Below are positions 1,071 to 26,264 of a stretch of DNA of 64,000 bases, one piece after another. Numbering within the stretch: the stretch's first letter is position 1; every line of letters begins with the position of its first letter. The notes beneath the pieces are model-generated. The model did not search any database. It saw nothing but the letters and a program-made list of their open reading frames with translations, and was not told the DNA's origin. The stretch lies in assembly GCA_035310145.1 (NCBI GenBank), contig DATGEL010000017.1, positions 1-64,000 on the forward strand. Direction: 5' to 3'. The DNA is from Dehalococcoidia bacterium. GTDB taxonomy: Bacteria; Chloroflexota; Dehalococcoidia; CAUJGQ01. The translations under genes were made by a program, and so were the position numbers.

Positions 1071-1730
1071 TTACGGCCGGCTGTCGGCCTGGCCGGGGCG
1101 GCGCCGGCCGCCGTGGCCGAACTTCGGCTCGGTGCCGGCGCGCAGCCGCTGGATGTTGTCCCGGTGCAGCACCACGATCATCGTCGCGGCCACCACGCCG
1201 AAGACGCCGTAGGCGTGCGGCACGCGCAGCTCAGGCGGCACGCGGTCGAGGAAGGCGAGCGCGGCGATGATCCCCGCCATCACGCCGCTGCCGACCACCG
1301 AGGCGAGCGAGATGTAGCCGAACGGCAGGGCGATGGCGAGGCCGATCGCAATCATGATCGGCCCCAGCAGCGGCATCATCACCGTCGTGGCGGCGAAGGC
1401 GACCAGCACGGCGCGGCCGCCGCGGAAGCCGACGTACACCGGCCAGATGTGGCCCACCATCGCGGCGATCCCCGCCACGGCCTGTACCGGCGCCCCGGCG
1501 AAGAAGCTGCGGGCGATCAGCACCGGCACGGCGCCCTTCGCCAGGTCGAGCAGGAAGACGACGGCGGCGAGCTTCCAGCCGAGCACGCGCATGCTGTTGG
1601 TGAAGCCCGTCTTGCCGCTGCCGTACTCGCGGATGTCGATGCCGCGCGCGAGCTTGCCGACCCACACCCCAGACGGCACCGCGCCGCAGAAGTAGCCGAT
1701 CGCCGCGACGAGGACGTACTGCCAGGTCAT
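1071..1730 (-). CDS. plsY: glycerol-3-phosphate acyltransferase PlsY
   Basis: 219 aa integral membrane protein, normal length for PlsY, which transfers the acyl group from acyl-phosphate to glycerol-3-phosphate in the first step of phospholipid synthesis at the inner membrane. Family motifs visible are the N-terminal GAVPSGVWVGK, the GSGKTGFTNSMRVLG loop (normally GSGNxGATN) and the LLDLAKGAVPVLIA segment, plus a later G-F-R-G-G-R-A-V motif. About five hydrophobic segments are present. Its ATG overlaps the stop of der (ATGA), so the two are translationally coupled. The Asn of the usual GSGNxG loop appears as Lys, which is unusual. Confidence 0.92.
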   Translation of the reverse strand: MTWQYVLVAAIGYFCGAVPSGVWVGKLARGIDIREYGSGKTGFTNSMRVLGWKLAAVVFLLDLAKGAVPVLIARSFFAGAPVQAVAGIAAMVGHIWPVYVGFRGGRAVLVAFAATTVMMPLLGPIMIAIGLAIALPFGYISLASVVGSGVMAGIIAALAFLDRVPPELRVPHAYGVFGVVAATMIVVLHRDNIQRLRAGTEPKFGHGGRRRPGQADSRP

Positions 1731-3088
1731 TCGGCGCCGCTCCTGCCCTTAAACGTGAGCTTGATCGGGGTGCCGCGGAAGGCGAACGCCTCGCGCAGGC
1801 AGTTCTCAAGGTACCGCGCATACGAGAAATGAACCAGATCCGGGTTATTCACAAAGAACACAAACGTCGGCGGCTGCGTCTCCGCCTGCGTGACGTAGAA
1901 CACGCGCAGCCGCTTGCCGCTTACCGCCGGCGGGCTGTGCTTCACCAGCGCCCGCTTCACGATCTGGTTGAGCCGCGGCGTGCCGATGCGGCCGTTGCGC
2001 GCCTCCCCGGCGGCCACGGCGTCGCGCAGCAGCTCGTCAATGCCCAGCCGCTCGCGCGCCGAGACGAAGACGACCTCCGCCCAGGGCGCAAACTTCACGC
2101 GCCGGCGGATCAGCCGCGTCAGGTCCGCCCGCCACTCGCCCACGCGCTCGATCAGGTCGATCTTGTTGAGCACGATCACCAGCGAGCGGAGCGATTCTTC
2201 GGCGAAGCCGATGATGTGGCCGTCCTGCGCGGTCAGCATTTCCGTCGCATCCATTACAGCCAGCACCACGTCGGCCCGCTCGATCGCCTCCTGCGCCCGC
2301 AGCACGCTGTGCTTCTCCACACCCGGATCAATGTGGCCGCGGCGGCGGATGCCGGCCGTATCGACCAGCACGAGTTCATGGCCTTCGAAGCTGAAGGCCG
2401 TATCGATCGCGTCGCGCGTGGTGCCCGGCACGCTGCTGACGATCACACGCTCTTCGCCGAGGATCGCGTTGAGCAGCGCCGACTTGCCCACGTTGGGCCG
2501 GCCGACGATGGCGATGCGCAGCGTTTGCGCGTCCGCCGGCGCCTCGGCCGCGGGCAGATACGGCTCCAGCGCGTCGAGCAGGTCGGGAATGCCGCTGTCG
2601 TGGTAAGCGCTGACGGCGATCGGCTCGCCGAAGCCGAGGCCGTAGAACTGCGCCAGGTCGGCGCGGCGGGCCGCGTTGTCCGCCTTGTTGGCGACGAGCA
2701 CGACCGGGCGATCGGCGCGGCGCAGCAGCTCGGCGGCTTCGAGATCGGCCGCGGTGAGGCCGTCGCGGGCGTCTACCGCGAAGACGATCACGGCGGCCTC
2801 GTCGATCGCCCGCCGGATCTGCATACGGATCAGCGCCGGGTAGCCGCCGGCGGCGCCGTCTTCGAGGCCGCCGGTGTCGATCAGGCGGAAGGGGCGGCGC
2901 GGCCAATCGACGGAGCCGTAGATGCGGTCGCGCGTGGTGCCGGGCAGGTCTTCCACCAGCGCCACGCGCCCGCCGACGAGCCGGTTGAAGAGCGCCGACT
3001 TGCCCACGTTGGGCCGGCCCACGATGGCGACGACGGGCAAGGCCGCGCCGCTCTCGGCCGGGGATGGAGGAGAATGCTGTACAGTCAC
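1727..3088 (-). CDS. der: ribosome-associated GTPase Der (EngA)
   Basis: 453 aa with the diagnostic double GTPase architecture: a first G domain with GRPNVGKS at residues 24-31, DLPGTTRDR and NKAD, a second one starting near residue 190 with GRPNVGKS, SVPGTTRDA, DTAGI and NKID, and a C-terminal KH-like domain ending near FRGTPIKLTFKGR. Der acts in maturation of the 50S ribosomal subunit. The length is typical. It is followed by plsY with a 4-base overlap, a pairing seen in other bacteria. The start chosen is the first ATG before a short disordered leader. Confidence 0.97.
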   Translation of the reverse strand: MTVQHSPPSPAESGAALPVVAIVGRPNVGKSALFNRLVGGRVALVEDLPGTTRDRIYGSVDWPRRPFRLIDTGGLEDGAAGGYPALIRMQIRRAIDEAAVIVFAVDARDGLTAADLEAAELLRRADRPVVLVANKADNAARRADLAQFYGLGFGEPIAVSAYHDSGIPDLLDALEPYLPAAEAPADAQTLRIAIVGRPNVGKSALLNAILGEERVIVSSVPGTTRDAIDTAFSFEGHELVLVDTAGIRRRGHIDPGVEKHSVLRAQEAIERADVVLAVMDATEMLTAQDGHIIGFAEESLRSLVIVLNKIDLIERVGEWRADLTRLIRRRVKFAPWAEVVFVSARERLGIDELLRDAVAAGEARNGRIGTPRLNQIVKRALVKHSPPAVSGKRLRVFYVTQAETQPPTFVFFVNNPDLVHFSYARYLENCLREAFAFRGTPIKLTFKGRSGAE

Positions 3089-19782: not shown

Positions 19783-22700
19783 TTACGCGGACCGCCCGTC
19801 GCCCGCGCCAGCGCTCGCCTTCGCCTTGTCGTCCAGCGAAGGCGGCGCCACCGGATCGAGGCTGGCGGCGCGGATGGCGGCATTCAGCTCCGCGACCTCG
19901 TTGGCCAGCAGATCGCGCAGCTTGCCCAGCTGCACCTCGAGCTGCGCCGAGAGTTCGGCGAAGACCTCGCGCGACTGCCTGGTCGGCGCGGCGTCGGCGC
20001 TGGCGATCACGGGCGGCAGGCCGGCCAGCTTCGGCACCAGCTTCGCCGGGTAGTTCAGCCGGTCCAGCGCCCCTTTCGCGCGGCTGTCGATCAGCTCCGC
20101 CTCGACTTCCGAAAGCCGCTTCTTCAGCGCCGTCGCGGCACGGCGCAGCGCCGTGCCGTTGGCGTCGCCCTGCGCCCGCGCCAGCCAGCGGTCGGCCTGG
20201 TCGCGCAGGTCGCGGATCTGGATTACGGCGCCGTTCGCCTCGGAGATGCGGTCGCGCACTTCGCTTGCGAAGGCGTACTGCGCCTCGAGGTCGGCCTGCG
20301 AGGCGGCCACGCGCGGGTCCTTGAGGATCTCGAAGGACTGCGTCTGGCTCTCGCCGTTCACGCTCAGCCGCACCTGGTAGCTGCCGGGCGGCACCGCGGG
20401 GCCGGCCACCTGCACGTCGGTCAGCGTCTCGCCGGGCAAGCGGCGGGCGTCGGCGGCGCGCAGGTTCCAGAGGAAGCGGTTGGCGCCGGCCCGTTTCGGC
20501 ACGCGCAGCTCTTCCGGCGCCTCGGCCGCGGGCGCCTCGACGCCTTCCTCGCCCTCCTCGCCCTCGGCCGGCGCCTCCGCGACCGGCTGCTGCACGGCTT
20601 CGTCCGGCTTGCTGGTAAAGCTCTTCAGCTCGTTGCCCGTCGCGTCGAGGAAGGTGAGCGTGACGGGGCTCTTCGGCTCCTCTTTGAGCCAGTAGGTGAC
20701 GATCACGCCGTCCGGCGGGTTCTTGCCGGCGTCGATCGGGGTGCGGATCAGCTCGCCGTGCTCCCCCTTCTTCTCGGTGAAGGTGACGGCCCAGCCGAGA
20801 CCCATGTTGTAGTTCTTGCCCGGATCGGCGGGCCGGCCGGCGCCGGGCAGCGGCCGCGTGCGATATGTGGGCCGCGGCTGGAAGAGGTGCGAGGCCTTGC
20901 CGGCGATCTCGCCCGCAAGTTGCCGCAGCGGCGAGAGGTCGTCCAGCACCCAGAAGGAGCGGCCGTGCGTGGCGGCCACCAGGTCCGAGTCTTTCACCTG
21001 CAGGTCGTGCACGGGCACGGCGGGCAGGTTGCCCTGCAGCGGCTGCCACTCGTTGCCGTCGTCGAAGCTGACGTAGACGCCGCGCTCCGTGCCGCAGTAG
21101 AGCAGGCCGCGCCGGGTTGGATCCTCGCGGATCACGCGGGTGATGTCGCCGTCGCCCAGGCCATTGGTGATCGGCTGCCAGCTCTTGCCGTAGTCGCCGG
21201 TCTTGAGCAGGATCGGGCGGAAGTCGTCGAGTTTGTAGCGCGTGGCGGCGAGGTAGGCCACGGCGGCGTCGTGCGGCGAGGGCTCGATCGTGCAGATCGT
21301 GCTCCACTCGGGCAGCTCTGGCGGTGTGAGGTTCTGCCAGCTGCTGCCGTCGCGCGAGAGGTGAATCAGGCCGTCGTCGGAGCCTGCCCAGAGCAGACGG
21401 CGCTCAAGCGGCGACTCGGCCAGGGCGAAGACGGTGCAGTAGTGCTCGGCGCCGGTCGTGTCCTTGGTGATCGGCCCGCCGGAGGGGCCGAGCTTGCTGG
21501 CGTCGTTGCGGGTGAGGTCCGGGCTGATCGGCTCCCAGCTCGAGCCTTCGTCGAACGACTGGAAGACGCGCTCGCCGGTGGCGTAGAGCGTATTCGGGTC
21601 GTGCGGCGAGATCAGGATGGGGAAGGTCCACTGGAAGCGGTGCTTCAGGTCCTTGGCGCCGTAGCCGCTGTAGACCTCCGGCCAAACGGTGATGATGCGC
21701 GTCTGCGCCGTGCCGTGGTCGTAGCGCAAGAGCGAGCCGCCGCCGCCCGGCGAGCTGCCCACGGCGCCGCTGATCACGACGTTGGGGTTATCGGGCCGCA
21801 CCTGGATGTGCCCGCTCTCCGAGCTGCCGACGGCGTAGCATTCGCCCCAGGGGATGGCGCCGGCGGCCGAGCGGCTGGGCACGGAGATCGCGGAGTTGTC
21901 CTGCTGCGTGCCGTAGACGCGGTAGGGAAACTGTGTGTCGATCGCGACGTGGTAGAACTGCGCGGTTGGCTGGTTGTAGATCGTGGACCAGCTGGCGCCG
22001 CCGTTGTAGCTGACGCAGGCGCCGCCGTCGTTGCCCTCGATCATGCGCTGCGGGTCGGCCGGGTCGATCCAGAGGTCGTGGTTGTCGCCGTGCGGCGTGG
22101 TCACGGGCGTGAACGTCTTGCCGCCGTCGCTGGAGCGCCACATTTTCAGATTGAGGCTGTAGACCGTCTCGGCGTCCTGCGGGTCGGCGAAGATGTGCAT
22201 GTAATACCAGGGCCGCTGGCGGATGTCGCGGTCCTCGCAGACGCGCTGCCAGCTCTCGCCGGCGTCGTCCGAGCGGAACAGACCGCCCTCTTCCGCCTCG
22301 ACGATCGCCCAGACGCGCCCCGCCTTCGCCGGCGAGACGGCGACCCCGATGCGGCCCTTGATCCCCTTCGGCAGGCCGGGCCTGTCGGAGAGGTCGCTCC
22401 ACGTCTCGCCGCCGTCGCTGGAGCGGTAGAGGCCGGAGTCCGGCCCGCCGCTCTCCAGCGTCCAGGGCGTGCGGAGCGCCTGCCAGATGGCGGCGAAGAG
22501 CAGGCGCGGGTTGTGCGGGTCCATCGAAAGGTCGGCGGCGCCGGCGCGCTCGCTCACGAACAGCGACTGCTGCCAGCTCTTGCCGCCGTCGCTGGAGCGG
22601 AAGACGCCGCGCTCCTTGTTCGGCCCGAAGGCGTGGCCCAGCGCCGCGACGTAGACCGTGTCCGGGTCGTTGGGATGCACGCGCACGCGGCTGATGTGGC

Positions 22701-23058
22701 GCGTGTCGGCCAGGCCGAGGTGCTGCCAGTTGCGGCCGGCGTCGGTGGAGCGGTAGACGCCATCGCCGTGGATCACGTTGCCGCGGATGCAGGCCTCGCC
22801 CGTGCCGGCGTAGATCACGTTCGGATCGGCCTCGGAGACGGCGAGCGCGCCGACCGGCGCGGTCTTGAAGAAGCCGTCGGAGACGTTCTCCCAGTAGGTG
22901 CCGCCGTCCGTGCTCTTCCAGACGCCGCCGCCGCAGGCGCCGAAGTAGAAGGTCGCCGGCTCGGCCGGGTCGCCGGCCACGGCGACGACGCGGCCGCCGC
23001 GCGGAGGGCCGATCATCCGCCACTCCATGGTTTTGAGCAGAGCCTGGTCCACCGCCAT
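19783..23058 (-). CDS. BNR/VPS10-sortilin-like beta-propeller protein
   Basis: 1,091 aa from the ATG at 23058 (MAVDQALLKTMEWRMIGPPRGG). Many Asp-box repeats of the S-x-D-G-G-x-T/S-W type occur from residue 40 to 650 (for example VWKSTDGGTYWENV, VFRSSDGGKSWQQ, LYRSSDGGETWSDL), the pattern of sortilin/VPS10 and exo-sialidase-like propellers. The C-terminal third holds an Ig/FN3-like segment and a helical tail. Relatives are usually secreted and annotated as glycosyl hydrolases, but enzymatic activity is rarely shown. No signal peptide is visible here, which is odd. Monocistronic. Confidence 0.88.
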   Translation of the reverse strand: MAVDQALLKTMEWRMIGPPRGGRVVAVAGDPAEPATFYFGACGGGVWKSTDGGTYWENVSDGFFKTAPVGALAVSEADPNVIYAGTGEACIRGNVIHGDGVYRSTDAGRNWQHLGLADTRHISRVRVHPNDPDTVYVAALGHAFGPNKERGVFRSSDGGKSWQQSLFVSERAGAADLSMDPHNPRLLFAAIWQALRTPWTLESGGPDSGLYRSSDGGETWSDLSDRPGLPKGIKGRIGVAVSPAKAGRVWAIVEAEEGGLFRSDDAGESWQRVCEDRDIRQRPWYYMHIFADPQDAETVYSLNLKMWRSSDGGKTFTPVTTPHGDNHDLWIDPADPQRMIEGNDGGACVSYNGGASWSTIYNQPTAQFYHVAIDTQFPYRVYGTQQDNSAISVPSRSAAGAIPWGECYAVGSSESGHIQVRPDNPNVVISGAVGSSPGGGGSLLRYDHGTAQTRIITVWPEVYSGYGAKDLKHRFQWTFPILISPHDPNTLYATGERVFQSFDEGSSWEPISPDLTRNDASKLGPSGGPITKDTTGAEHYCTVFALAESPLERRLLWAGSDDGLIHLSRDGSSWQNLTPPELPEWSTICTIEPSPHDAAVAYLAATRYKLDDFRPILLKTGDYGKSWQPITNGLGDGDITRVIREDPTRRGLLYCGTERGVYVSFDDGNEWQPLQGNLPAVPVHDLQVKDSDLVAATHGRSFWVLDDLSPLRQLAGEIAGKASHLFQPRPTYRTRPLPGAGRPADPGKNYNMGLGWAVTFTEKKGEHGELIRTPIDAGKNPPDGVIVTYWLKEEPKSPVTLTFLDATGNELKSFTSKPDEAVQQPVAEAPAEGEEGEEGVEAPAAEAPEELRVPKRAGANRFLWNLRAADARRLPGETLTDVQVAGPAVPPGSYQVRLSVNGESQTQSFEILKDPRVAASQADLEAQYAFASEVRDRISEANGAVIQIRDLRDQADRWLARAQGDANGTALRRAATALKKRLSEVEAELIDSRAKGALDRLNYPAKLVPKLAGLPPVIASADAAPTRQSREVFAELSAQLEVQLGKLRDLLANEVAELNAAIRAASLDPVAPPSLDDKAKASAGAGDGRSA

Positions 23059-23142
23059 CGCAATCCTCCCGCGTGGCTGTCTCGGCCACCGCGCAGAGAA
23101 TACAATTTCCGAGTGCGATGTGGCAGCTTTCGCGCAGAATAC

Positions 23143-23171
23143 CGAGGGGTTTCGGCACGATGGCGCGCAGT
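23143..23171 (+). repeat. partial duplicate of the AhpD-gene start region
   Basis: GAGGGGTTTCGGCACGATGG and the next nine bases match 23791-23819, the ribosome-binding and start region of the AhpD-like gene, at about 26 of 29 positions. The copy here leads into no conserved protein. The cupin gene lies between the two copies. Confidence 0.6.
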
Positions 23172-23251
23172 CCGGCGGCATTACGTCCGCGGCATGCCAT
23201 CGGGTTCGTTGCACAGCGAGCGCGAAGGAGTCGTCTGTAGGAGGCGAGGCG

Positions 23252-23776
23252 ATGCCGGACGGCTTCATCGTCCCACACGGAGGTGGGAGCAAAGTCGGGG
23301 CGGCTGGTTTGGAAGTGAGCGCGAAGGTAATCGCCGATCAGGCACGCAGCGCTTCAAGCTTCGAGCTGACGATCTGGCCTGGCTTCGACGTGGGCGCCCA
23401 CGTGCATAGCCGGCTGGAGGAGCTGTTCTATATCGTCGAGGGCGAACTCGATCTGCTGGCGTTTGAACCGCGCGTGCGAACGGCGACGGACTGGCGGCTG
23501 TGGGAATCACACACCGGCGAGCGAGTCATACGCGGCGACCCGGGCACCTTGATGTTCGTGCCGCTTGGCTGTCCGCATGCCTTTGCGAACCCGGGCACGA
23601 GCCCGGCGCGGGTCTTCTTCCAGGCGGCGCCTCCCGGACACGAGCGTTACTTCGAGGGGCTCGGTGAGATTCTTTCTGGCGGCGGTCCTCCTGACCATGA
23701 AGCGATTGCGGAGCTGCGTCGCCGCTACGACACAGAGCAAATTACGCCGCTGGTGCCTGGTCGCATGCCGTCCTGA
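23252..23776 (+). CDS. cupin-domain protein
   Basis: 174 aa from ATG 23252 behind GGAGGCGAGG. A single cupin: FDVGAHVHSRLEELFYIVEGELDLLAFE is motif 1 (H-x-H with a Glu), and GTLMFVPLGCPHAFANPG is motif 2 with the third His. It resembles small quercetinase/oxalate-type cupins of unknown substrate. It ends 28 bases before the AhpD-like gene on the same strand, so the pair may be cotranscribed. Confidence 0.88.
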   Translation: MPDGFIVPHGGGSKVGAAGLEVSAKVIADQARSASSFELTIWPGFDVGAHVHSRLEELFYIVEGELDLLAFEPRVRTATDWRLWESHTGERVIRGDPGTLMFVPLGCPHAFANPGTSPARVFFQAAPPGHERYFEGLGEILSGGGPPDHEAIAELRRRYDTEQITPLVPGRMPS

Positions 23777-23804
23777 GCCCGGCGTCTGCGAGGTTTTCGG
23801 CACG

Positions 23805-24416
23805 ATGGCGCGCATTCCTCTGGTCGAGTATGAAACGGCCCCACCCGAGGTCCGCGCCTTGTTCGATGCGCACGGCGGGCGGGGGCAGCGCAACGTGGCG
23901 CGGCTCTTCGCCAGCCAGGCCGACTTCCTCGCCGGCTTCTACGCCTTCGTGGACGGCCTGTACCGGCACAACGCGTTGCCGCCGCGCCTGCGCGAGCTGG
24001 CCTATCTGCGCGCCTCGCAGCTCAACGGCTGCCACTACTGAGTGCCCACGCATCTTGCGCTCGGGTCGAGCGCCGGCATCTCGGACGAAGAGCTTTCGTG
24101 GCTGAACGGCTGGGAGGCGGCGCCCGTCTTCGACGAGAGCGACCGCCTGGCGCTGCGCTACGCCGACGCACTGACCCGGGAGAACCGCGTGGACGCCGAG
24201 CTGTACGCGGCGCTCGAAGCCCGCTTTGCGCCGCGCCAATTGTTCGAGCTGTGCATGGCCGTCAGCCTCGCCGCGCTCGTCAACCGCGTACACGCGACGT
24301 TTCTGACGGACGTGGATGAGCGCACGTCCGCGCGTGTTTCGCAGCTCGAGCTTCGCGATCGACGCGCCGAGGGAGCAGACGGCGGCGGAGACAGCCGATC
24401 GTCGGCCAATGCCTAG
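23805..24416 (+). CDS. AhpD/CMD-family peroxidase-type protein with in-frame TGA (candidate selenoprotein)
   Basis: 203 codons from ATG 23805 with one in-frame TGA at 24039-24041 (codon 79). Upstream reads LRELAYLRASQLNGCHY, downstream VPTHLALGSSAGISDEE, with conserved family sequence continuing to residue 203 (RLALRYADAL, LFELCMAVSLAALVNRVHATF). In AhpD/carboxymuconolactone-decarboxylase-like proteins the redox site is C-x-x-C-x3-H; here it is Cys76-His-Tyr-TGA79-x3-His83, so the TGA replaces exactly the second cysteine. CxxU forms of this family are known selenoproteins. A hairpin with a GGGTC loop follows at a suitable distance. A nonsense mutation is the alternative; selA/B/C/D are not in the window. 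Confidence 0.75.
24042..24079 (+). promoter_or_regulatory. SECIS-like hairpin after the TGA codon
   Basis: GCGCTC (24057-24062) and GAGCGC (24068-24073) form a perfect 6-bp stem closing a GGGTC loop, 21 bases after the TGA. A lower helix is possible between GTGCC (24042-24046) and GGCAT (24075-24079). Bacterial SECIS elements place such a minihelix 16-37 nt from the UGA, and the E. coli fdhF loop also contains GGTC. In a 70% GC genome short GC stems also arise by chance. Confidence 0.5.
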
Positions 24417-24495: not shown

Positions 24496-25500
24496 ATGAT
24501 GGAGCAGGCTCATCGCCACAAGGGGACCGTGTTGGCGCCTGTTTGCTTCGATGACCGTTTGCTCGACAAGCTGGTGCCTGGCGAGGCGCGGGCATTGGTG
24601 AGCAAAGATAACCAGAGAGCCATTCCTGCCATCGCGAAGGATCCGACGTTACTCCGTGGAATCGAGGAGGCCATCCGATCCTTGCCTACCTCGCATGACC
24701 TGCTACTCAGTGACGGCCGGGCGATGGCTGAAATCGCGGATGCGAGCGTTCACCTCGTCGTAACGTCTCCGCCGTATTGGACGCTCAAGGAGTATGTCGA
24801 CCACCCCGCGCAGCTCGGCCATGTCGATGACTACACAGACTTTTTGAGTGAGTTGGACAAGGTATGGCGTGAAGTCTATCGAGTACTTGTACCGGGCGGG
24901 CGTCTCGTCGTCGTCGTCGGCGATGTGTGCCTGCCGCGCCGTCGATTCGGCCGCCATGTGGTGTTTCCCCTGCACGCCAGTATTCAGGAACGATGCAGAG
25001 TCATTGGATTCGATAACCTCGCGCCGATCATTTGGCACAAGATCGCCAATGCAAAGCTCGAGGTCGAGAACGGCTCAAGCTTTCTTGGCAAACCGTATGA
25101 ACCGAATGGCATTGTCAAGAACGATATAGAATACATCCTCTTTCAAAGGAAATCAGGCGGTTACCGTCAACCGTCCGTCCCGGCGCGCGTGCTGTCGGTG
25201 ATTCCGGCGGATGCCCACAAGGAGTGGTTTCAGCAGATCTGGACGCTTGCCGGCGCGTCGACGCGGAGGCATCCGGCGCCGTTTCCGCTCTCGCTTGCTG
25301 AACGCCTTGTGCGGATGTTTTCATTCGTGGGAGATACCGTGCTCGACCCGTTCATGGGCACGGGGACGACGAATCTGGCCGCCCGCCGCTGGGGCAGGAA
25401 TAGCATTGGCATGGAGATCATCGCGGAGTACTACGACATCGCGCAGCGCAGGATGGCCGCGCATGACGGTGTCCAGCTGTCACTCGCCGCGGGAGACTGA
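24496..25500 (+). CDS. DNA methyltransferase of an XhoI-type restriction-modification system
   Basis: 334 aa beta-class amino-methyltransferase. Catalytic motif IV is TSPPYW (residues near 90), followed by the target region, and the SAM motif I is LDPFMGTGTTNLAARRWGRNSIGME near the C-terminus, the order that defines the beta group. SPPY favours N4-cytosine methylation, though N6-adenine cannot be excluded. Six bases separate it from the endonuclease gene. GC content is visibly lower than in neighbours, a sign of transfer. Confidence 0.9.
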   Translation: MMEQAHRHKGTVLAPVCFDDRLLDKLVPGEARALVSKDNQRAIPAIAKDPTLLRGIEEAIRSLPTSHDLLLSDGRAMAEIADASVHLVVTSPPYWTLKEYVDHPAQLGHVDDYTDFLSELDKVWREVYRVLVPGGRLVVVVGDVCLPRRRFGRHVVFPLHASIQERCRVIGFDNLAPIIWHKIANAKLEVENGSSFLGKPYEPNGIVKNDIEYILFQRKSGGYRQPSVPARVLSVIPADAHKEWFQQIWTLAGASTRRHPAPFPLSLAERLVRMFSFVGDTVLDPFMGTGTTNLAARRWGRNSIGMEIIAEYYDIAQRRMAAHDGVQLSLAAGD

Positions 25501-25505
25501 TCGGC

Positions 25506-26264
25506 ATGTTTCTCGTACCCTCGAACGTCTTCACAGATGCTGTGCGCACGTTTTGGGGAACTCGCACTGCCCAGTCCGGCGCTCAGATAGCTCGTGGGGC
25601 CACCGATCAAGGCAAACGCGGATCGGTGACGGGCGGCGCCCACCTGCACGGCTTTGCGCGGACCATCATCACGCTGCTGGTGAACATTGGCGTGAGGCCA
25701 GAGCACATTTTTGCCGCGCGTGGATCGCTTCCTGAAGACGTTGCGGTACGCAGCACTATGAGCTTGCCAGGTTTCTATCGAGCAACCAAGAACTGGGATC
25801 TATTGGTTGTCGTAGATGGAAATCTGGTAGCGGCACTTGAACTCAAGTCTCAGGTTGGGCCGTCGTTCGGGAACAATTTCAATAACCGATCTGAAGAGGC
25901 AATCGGGACGGCCGCCGATATCTGGGTGGCCTACCGCGAAGGTACATTTGGGTCGTCACCCACGCCTTGGCTTGGATACGTATTCTTGCTGGAAGACTGT
26001 GAAGCCTCTCGGCGACCGATCTTAACCATCTCGCCACACTTCGCGATCCTTCCAGAATTTGCAGGAGCGTCCTATGCCCGTCGCTACGAGTTACTGTGTC
26101 GGAAACTGGTACGCGAGCGCCAGTATAGCGCTGCGTGCTTCCTCATCTCCGACCCAACCAGGGCTGACGCAGAGCCCAACTACCTCGAACCTGCTCCGGA
26201 TTTGAGTGGCGAACGCTTTCTGACGCAGTTGCTGGCACACGTTTCCGGTAGTGTTCGACCATAG
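25506..26264 (+). CDS. XhoI/PaeR7I-family type II restriction endonuclease
   Basis: 252 aa. ATDQGKRGSVTGGAHLHGF, MSLPGFYRATKNWDLLVVVDGNLVAALELKSQVGPSFGNNFNNRSEEAIGTAADIWVAYREG and PWLGYVFLLED reproduce the XhoI/PaeR7I signature, including the nuclease core D...E-x-K (WDLLVVV...ALELKSQ). Characterised members cut CTCGAG. Paired directly with its methyltransferase. Uncleaved CTCGAG sites are present (for example 24345, 25057, 39184), so protection must rely on methylation if the enzyme is active with that specificity. Confidence 0.9.
   Translation: MFLVPSNVFTDAVRTFWGTRTAQSGAQIARGATDQGKRGSVTGGAHLHGFARTIITLLVNIGVRPEHIFAARGSLPEDVAVRSTMSLPGFYRATKNWDLLVVVDGNLVAALELKSQVGPSFGNNFNNRSEEAIGTAADIWVAYREGTFGSSPTPWLGYVFLLEDCEASRRPILTISPHFAILPEFAGASYARRYELLCRKLVRERQYSAACFLISDPTRADAEPNYLEPAPDLSGERFLTQLLAHVSGSVRP

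Follow-up and report, generated by a model that had tools for sequence, protein, structure and literature searches.

Within the window (the whole 64,000-nucleotide stretch of DNA analysed here), a predicted gene for an AhpD-like protein is preceded by a cupin-domain gene and contains one in-frame TGA, followed closely by a hairpin (Table 1). Translation confirmed that, as the initial annotation had claimed, the frame runs for 203 codons with this single internal TGA, at codon 79, before it ends at TAG. The protein reads QLNGCHY immediately before the TGA and VPTHLALGSSAG after it, the local residues being N-G-C76-H-Y-U79-V-P-T-H83. The TGA thus falls exactly on the second cysteine of the C-x-x-C-x3-H site, where it had been placed, and the complete AhpD signature becomes E64-x11-C76-H-Y78-U79-x3-H83. 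The G+C content of third codon positions is 0.91 before the TGA and 0.89 after it, so that both halves look coding. Genetic code table 11 alone yields two ORFs.

Table 1. Features of the locus and of related predicted genes (window positions for the first five rows)
Feature	Coordinates	Strand	Details and evidence
Cupin-domain gene	23252..23776	+	28 nt 5' of the Sec gene; PF07883, 42 bits
Possible Shine-Dalgarno sequence, GAGG	23790..23793	+	11 nt 5' of ATG; sequence inspection
AhpD-like/CMD-fold selenoprotein CDS (predicted)	23805..24416	+	203 aa, ATG start, TAG stop; translation with TGA as Sec, profile matches, same-TGA orthologues
Sec codon U79 (predicted)	24039..24041	+	In-frame TGA, site C76-x-x-U79-x3-H83; TGA in 4/4 orthologues, Cys in more distant relatives
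Candidate bacterial SECIS hairpin	24057..24073	+	Loop GGGUC at 21 nt 3' of UGA; stem of 6 bp, or 7 with further closure of the loop; fold, four orthologues, bSECIS model
L019, second CxxU AhpD-like paralogue, same genome (predicted)	1501-1971 (G000:C38:2393-2863)	-	In-frame TGA, GCPFU-VDINAAGGSNAG
L045, CxYU-TRSH AhpD-like (predicted)	1501-2001	+	Other family of the phylum; TIGR01926 passed
L047, CxYU-TRSH AhpD-like (predicted)	1501-2022	+	Other family of the phylum; TIGR01926 passed
L039, SelD, predicted selenoprotein itself	G000:C119, 309-1241	-	In-frame TGA in SCGGU-ASK

The cupin gene and the AhpD-like gene are possibly co-transcribed. Gene context was compared across three orthologues, and the neighbours were found to differ in each genome (by reading of their sequences, nitronate-monooxygenase-like, RraA-like and helicase-like proteins, against a cupin here); therefore, there is no conserved link to the cupin and the context gives no substrate. 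Elsewhere around the locus, an N6/N4 DNA methylase gene (24496-25500) and a gene for a XhoI-family restriction endonuclease (25506-26264; Pfam XhoI, 262 bits) form a type II restriction-modification pair (24496-26264) directly 3' of the selenoprotein gene, and a large protein with Sortilin-Vps10/BNR repeats is encoded on the minus strand at 19783-23292.

Searches with the read-through protein gave a match to the Pfam CMD family (PF02627; 64.5 bits, cut-off 23, E 9e-18) and to the AhpD core domain (TIGR00778; 42.5 bits, cut-off 27.8). The latter is the sole NCBIfam model passed, the protein lying below the full-length NCBIfam models compared: 38.7 bits against a cut-off of 81.8 for the peroxidase-related enzyme model TIGR01926 (44–53 bits for the orthologues), and 64 against 310 for NF053654 (GroundWater_YciW). 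An AlphaFold2 model built from three sequences has a mean pLDDT of 72.6, with values of at least 80 in each ten-residue block of residues 61–160. Its best structural matches are Pseudomonas aeruginosa PA0269 and Atu0492 (TM to target ∼0.8), which are also the best sequence matches. The AhpD-like assignment made in the initial annotation is thus borne out by both the Pfam match and the AhpD-type crystal structures. The proton relay of PA0269 consists of Glu36, Cys48, Tyr50, Cys51 and His55, and that of Mycobacterium tuberculosis AhpD of Glu118, Cys130, His132, Cys133 and His137 (PMC3141380). Residues E64, C76, Y78, U79 and H83 conform to the pattern Glu-x11-Cys-x-His/Tyr-Cys/Sec-x3-His and match the PA0269 relay in identity (Sec for Cys51) and spacing.

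Orthologues were sought in 393 genomes of the same class, which yielded two (L027 and L028, from two other families, with 63% and 43% identity across the aligned region), and in 400 genomes of the phylum, which added one more (L043). All four genes, including the one described here, carry TGA at exactly this codon, in one shared column of the codon alignment, and they represent four families of one phylum. The motifs of the other three are CHYU-VPTH (L027), CYYU-IPTH (L028) and CHYU-IPTH (L043). A sequencing or assembly error that turned TGC or TGT into TGA might be suspected in a draft of 148 contigs, yet the same TGA in three independently assembled genomes of other families, together with a Sec-competent genome, leaves this explanation with a practically negligible probability. 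In all orthologues homology extends past the TGA to residue ∼176, the end of the domain, so the downstream half has not been lost, and V159-N160-R161 and H163-A164-T165-F166 are common to the first three aligned sequences. The gene therefore combines an in-frame UGA at a redox cysteine position with homology on both sides, as expected of a bacterial selenoprotein. Splitting of the gene into two ORFs by table 11 alone is also what a pseudogene would give, with the TGA as a true nonsense mutation and a dead downstream half. However, this reading is very improbable and, as judged from the sequences, already refuted by the TGA conserved across four families and by the conserved downstream half, in which dN lies well below dS relative to the nearest orthologue (0.37 and 1.10, NG86) and third-position G+C is unchanged.

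The initial annotation had asked whether cysteine occurs at this codon in AhpD homologues. It does so in distant relatives from Alphaproteobacteria, Bacteroidota and Actinomycetota (L029, CHYC; L030, CHYC; L031, CAYC). Among close orthologues none with a Cys codon here came to light, the Cys forms being ∼30% identical overall, and a scan of genome contigs returned only distant Cys relatives. Plasmid matches were all below 35% identity among the matches listed, and a search of viral contigs revealed no relatives. A tree built from 27 proteins places the four orthologues in a single group (support 91/82) and separates all Cys and Sec forms from paralogues with Glu at the site (100/99). The orthologue subgroup, defined by CxYU-[VI]-P-T-H, is patchy in the phylum.

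Downstream of the TGA, the hairpin that had been described was confirmed exactly, with arms at 24057-24062 (GCGCTC) and 24068-24073 (GAGCGC), a GGGTC loop at 24063-24067, and the stem lying 15 nt and the loop 21 nt from the TGA. It conforms to the published bSECIS constraints (PMC13188914; −10.7 kcal/mol, 7 bp, 22 nt), as do the hairpins of the three orthologues, but so do 199 of the 1191 TGAs on both strands of the GC-rich window, a background rate of ∼17%; 5.5% of window TGAs have a hairpin at least as stable. The folding z-score of the region is only −1.5. Taken by itself the hairpin is consequently not remarkable, whereas the position and conservation of the TGA are; given the background rate, the hairpin supports the selenoprotein case and does not carry it. 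All four orthologues have the 6-bp helix at an identical offset, with standard pairs in 24 of 24 cells and two pairs changed on both sides, and sliding the helix partners destroys the pairing. Covariation is not significant with four sequences only, since 61 of 500 shuffles reached the observed value. Resampling of synonymous codons gave a chance of ∼8% for such a helix per gene, with a product of 4.6e-5 if the genes were independent, which relatives are not.

Absence of selB or selC had been named as grounds for rejecting the selenoprotein. All four components that a genome requires for bacterial selenoprotein synthesis were found in the assembly (5.32 Mb, 99.8% complete): a tRNA-Sec (74 bits; ARAGORN anticodon TCA, i.e. 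UCA) and, by profile search, SelA (520 bits, cut-off 268), SelB (325 bits, cut-off 242) and SelD (366 bits, cut-off 125). The Sec genes lie on contigs other than that of the selenoprotein gene (C17), which in a draft with 3.6% estimated contamination we count against the case. The hairpin 3' of the TGA in the selD gene (CGGU) fits the bSECIS model and served as a positive control. SelA is encoded in all three other orthologue genomes. Of 15 further genomes tested, for which no CxxU homologue was available, 8 encode it too; its co-occurrence is therefore a check of consistency, with no enrichment implied.

The UGA might also be read by another route, through reassignment to Trp or suppression, or the two halves might be translated separately, the second half starting from the GTG at 24042; we regard these options as scarcely probable. 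A GTG does stand directly after the TGA, and L027 has it too, but L028 and L043 have ATA and ATC at that codon, so the putative start is not conserved. Reading as Trp would give a CxxW site devoid of a catalytic residue that relatives have as Cys. Other decoding is further opposed by the remaining genes of the window, which are read normally by table 11, and by the presence of a dedicated UCA tRNA-Sec.

Comparison within the phylum shows that predicted CxxU AhpD-like proteins recur there, namely in L045, L047, L019 and L026 besides the orthologues. L026, from the genome of the nearest relative, is the TGA-bearing counterpart of L019, both having CPFU-[VM]DIN; they scored 133–140 bits against NF053654 (cut-off 310). 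L045 and L047 exceed the TIGR01926 cut-off with 83.8 and 82.9 bits; in L045 no hairpin conformed to the strict contiguous-stem SECIS model. Several other candidates were rejected: the in-frame TAG of L018, a paralogue from the same genome considered as a second recoded codon, is its terminator, as are the TGAs of L025 and L046, and L018, L020, L023 and L024, considered as Cys versions of the enzyme, have Glu rather than Cys at the site.

We are thus highly confident that the locus encodes a complete predicted CxxU selenoprotein of the AhpD/carboxymuconolactone-decarboxylase fold; with the full Sec machinery in the genome and the same TGA in three relatives, a selenium-containing redox enzyme is almost certain. 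The protein probably functions as a thiol/selenol peroxidase or a disulfide-relay protein. In such a scheme, a complex of SelB and Sec-tRNA would recognize the hairpin just 3' of the UGA and insert Sec, and the Cys76/Sec79 pair would act with Glu64, Tyr78 and His83 as an AhpD-type proton relay. By analogy with the family, C76 is expected to become linked to the second-position selenol as a selenenylsulfide in the course of turnover, and the outcome would be either reduction of a substrate, presumably peroxide, or electron relay through the selenenylsulfide. It is also conceivable, though unlikely, that the CxYU-[VI]-P-T-H group, for which only Sec forms have been observed so far, is a distinct, sporadic selenoprotein family of the phylum whose selenol acts on a non-peroxide substrate, e.g. 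in reductive dehalogenation as in the AhpD-fold debrominase Bmp8; Bmp8 is a weaker structural match. Since genes of this kind are split or truncated by standard annotation, the predicted enzyme would be overlooked or taken for a pseudogene. The Sec-competent genome would encode at least three selenoproteins (the CxxU AhpD-like protein, its CPFU paralogue and SelD).

As the initial annotation had stated, CxxU AhpD-like selenoproteins are established in other bacteria: they were reported by Zhang and Gladyshev from the Sargasso Sea in 2005 and from the GOS data in 2008 (PMC1088965, PMC2398784), and a 2026 review (PMC13188914) has several such entries, AhpD-like 1 (COG2128/TIGR01926), AhpD-like 2 and CMD-like (PF02627). 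The protein described here belongs to the same fold family as those of Zhang and Gladyshev and shares with them the CxxU motif with Sec in place of the second Cys and a SECIS-like hairpin just 3' of it. It differs from AhpD-like 1 in falling below the TIGR01926 cut-off and from NF053654, its best full-length NCBIfam match by score, which NCBI labels a YciW-related (seleno)protein, in falling far below that cut-off, to which the paralogue L019 comes closer. The subgroup therefore appears, as judged by profile scores, to be a separate branch, and it adds to the CxxU AhpD-like selenoproteins a patchily distributed group that lies under the full-length cut-offs compared. Among characterized structures, PA0269 (2O4D, 2IJC, 7XW1; PMC3141380) is the closest, with relay residues alike in kind and spacing, but has Cys instead of Sec and ∼30% identity. 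M. tuberculosis AhpD shares the Glu118/Cys130/Cys133/His137 spacing and differs in the position of its motif near the chain C-terminus, in His132 for Tyr and in being Cys-only. The mechanism would be nothing new; the type is already known and the branch is new.
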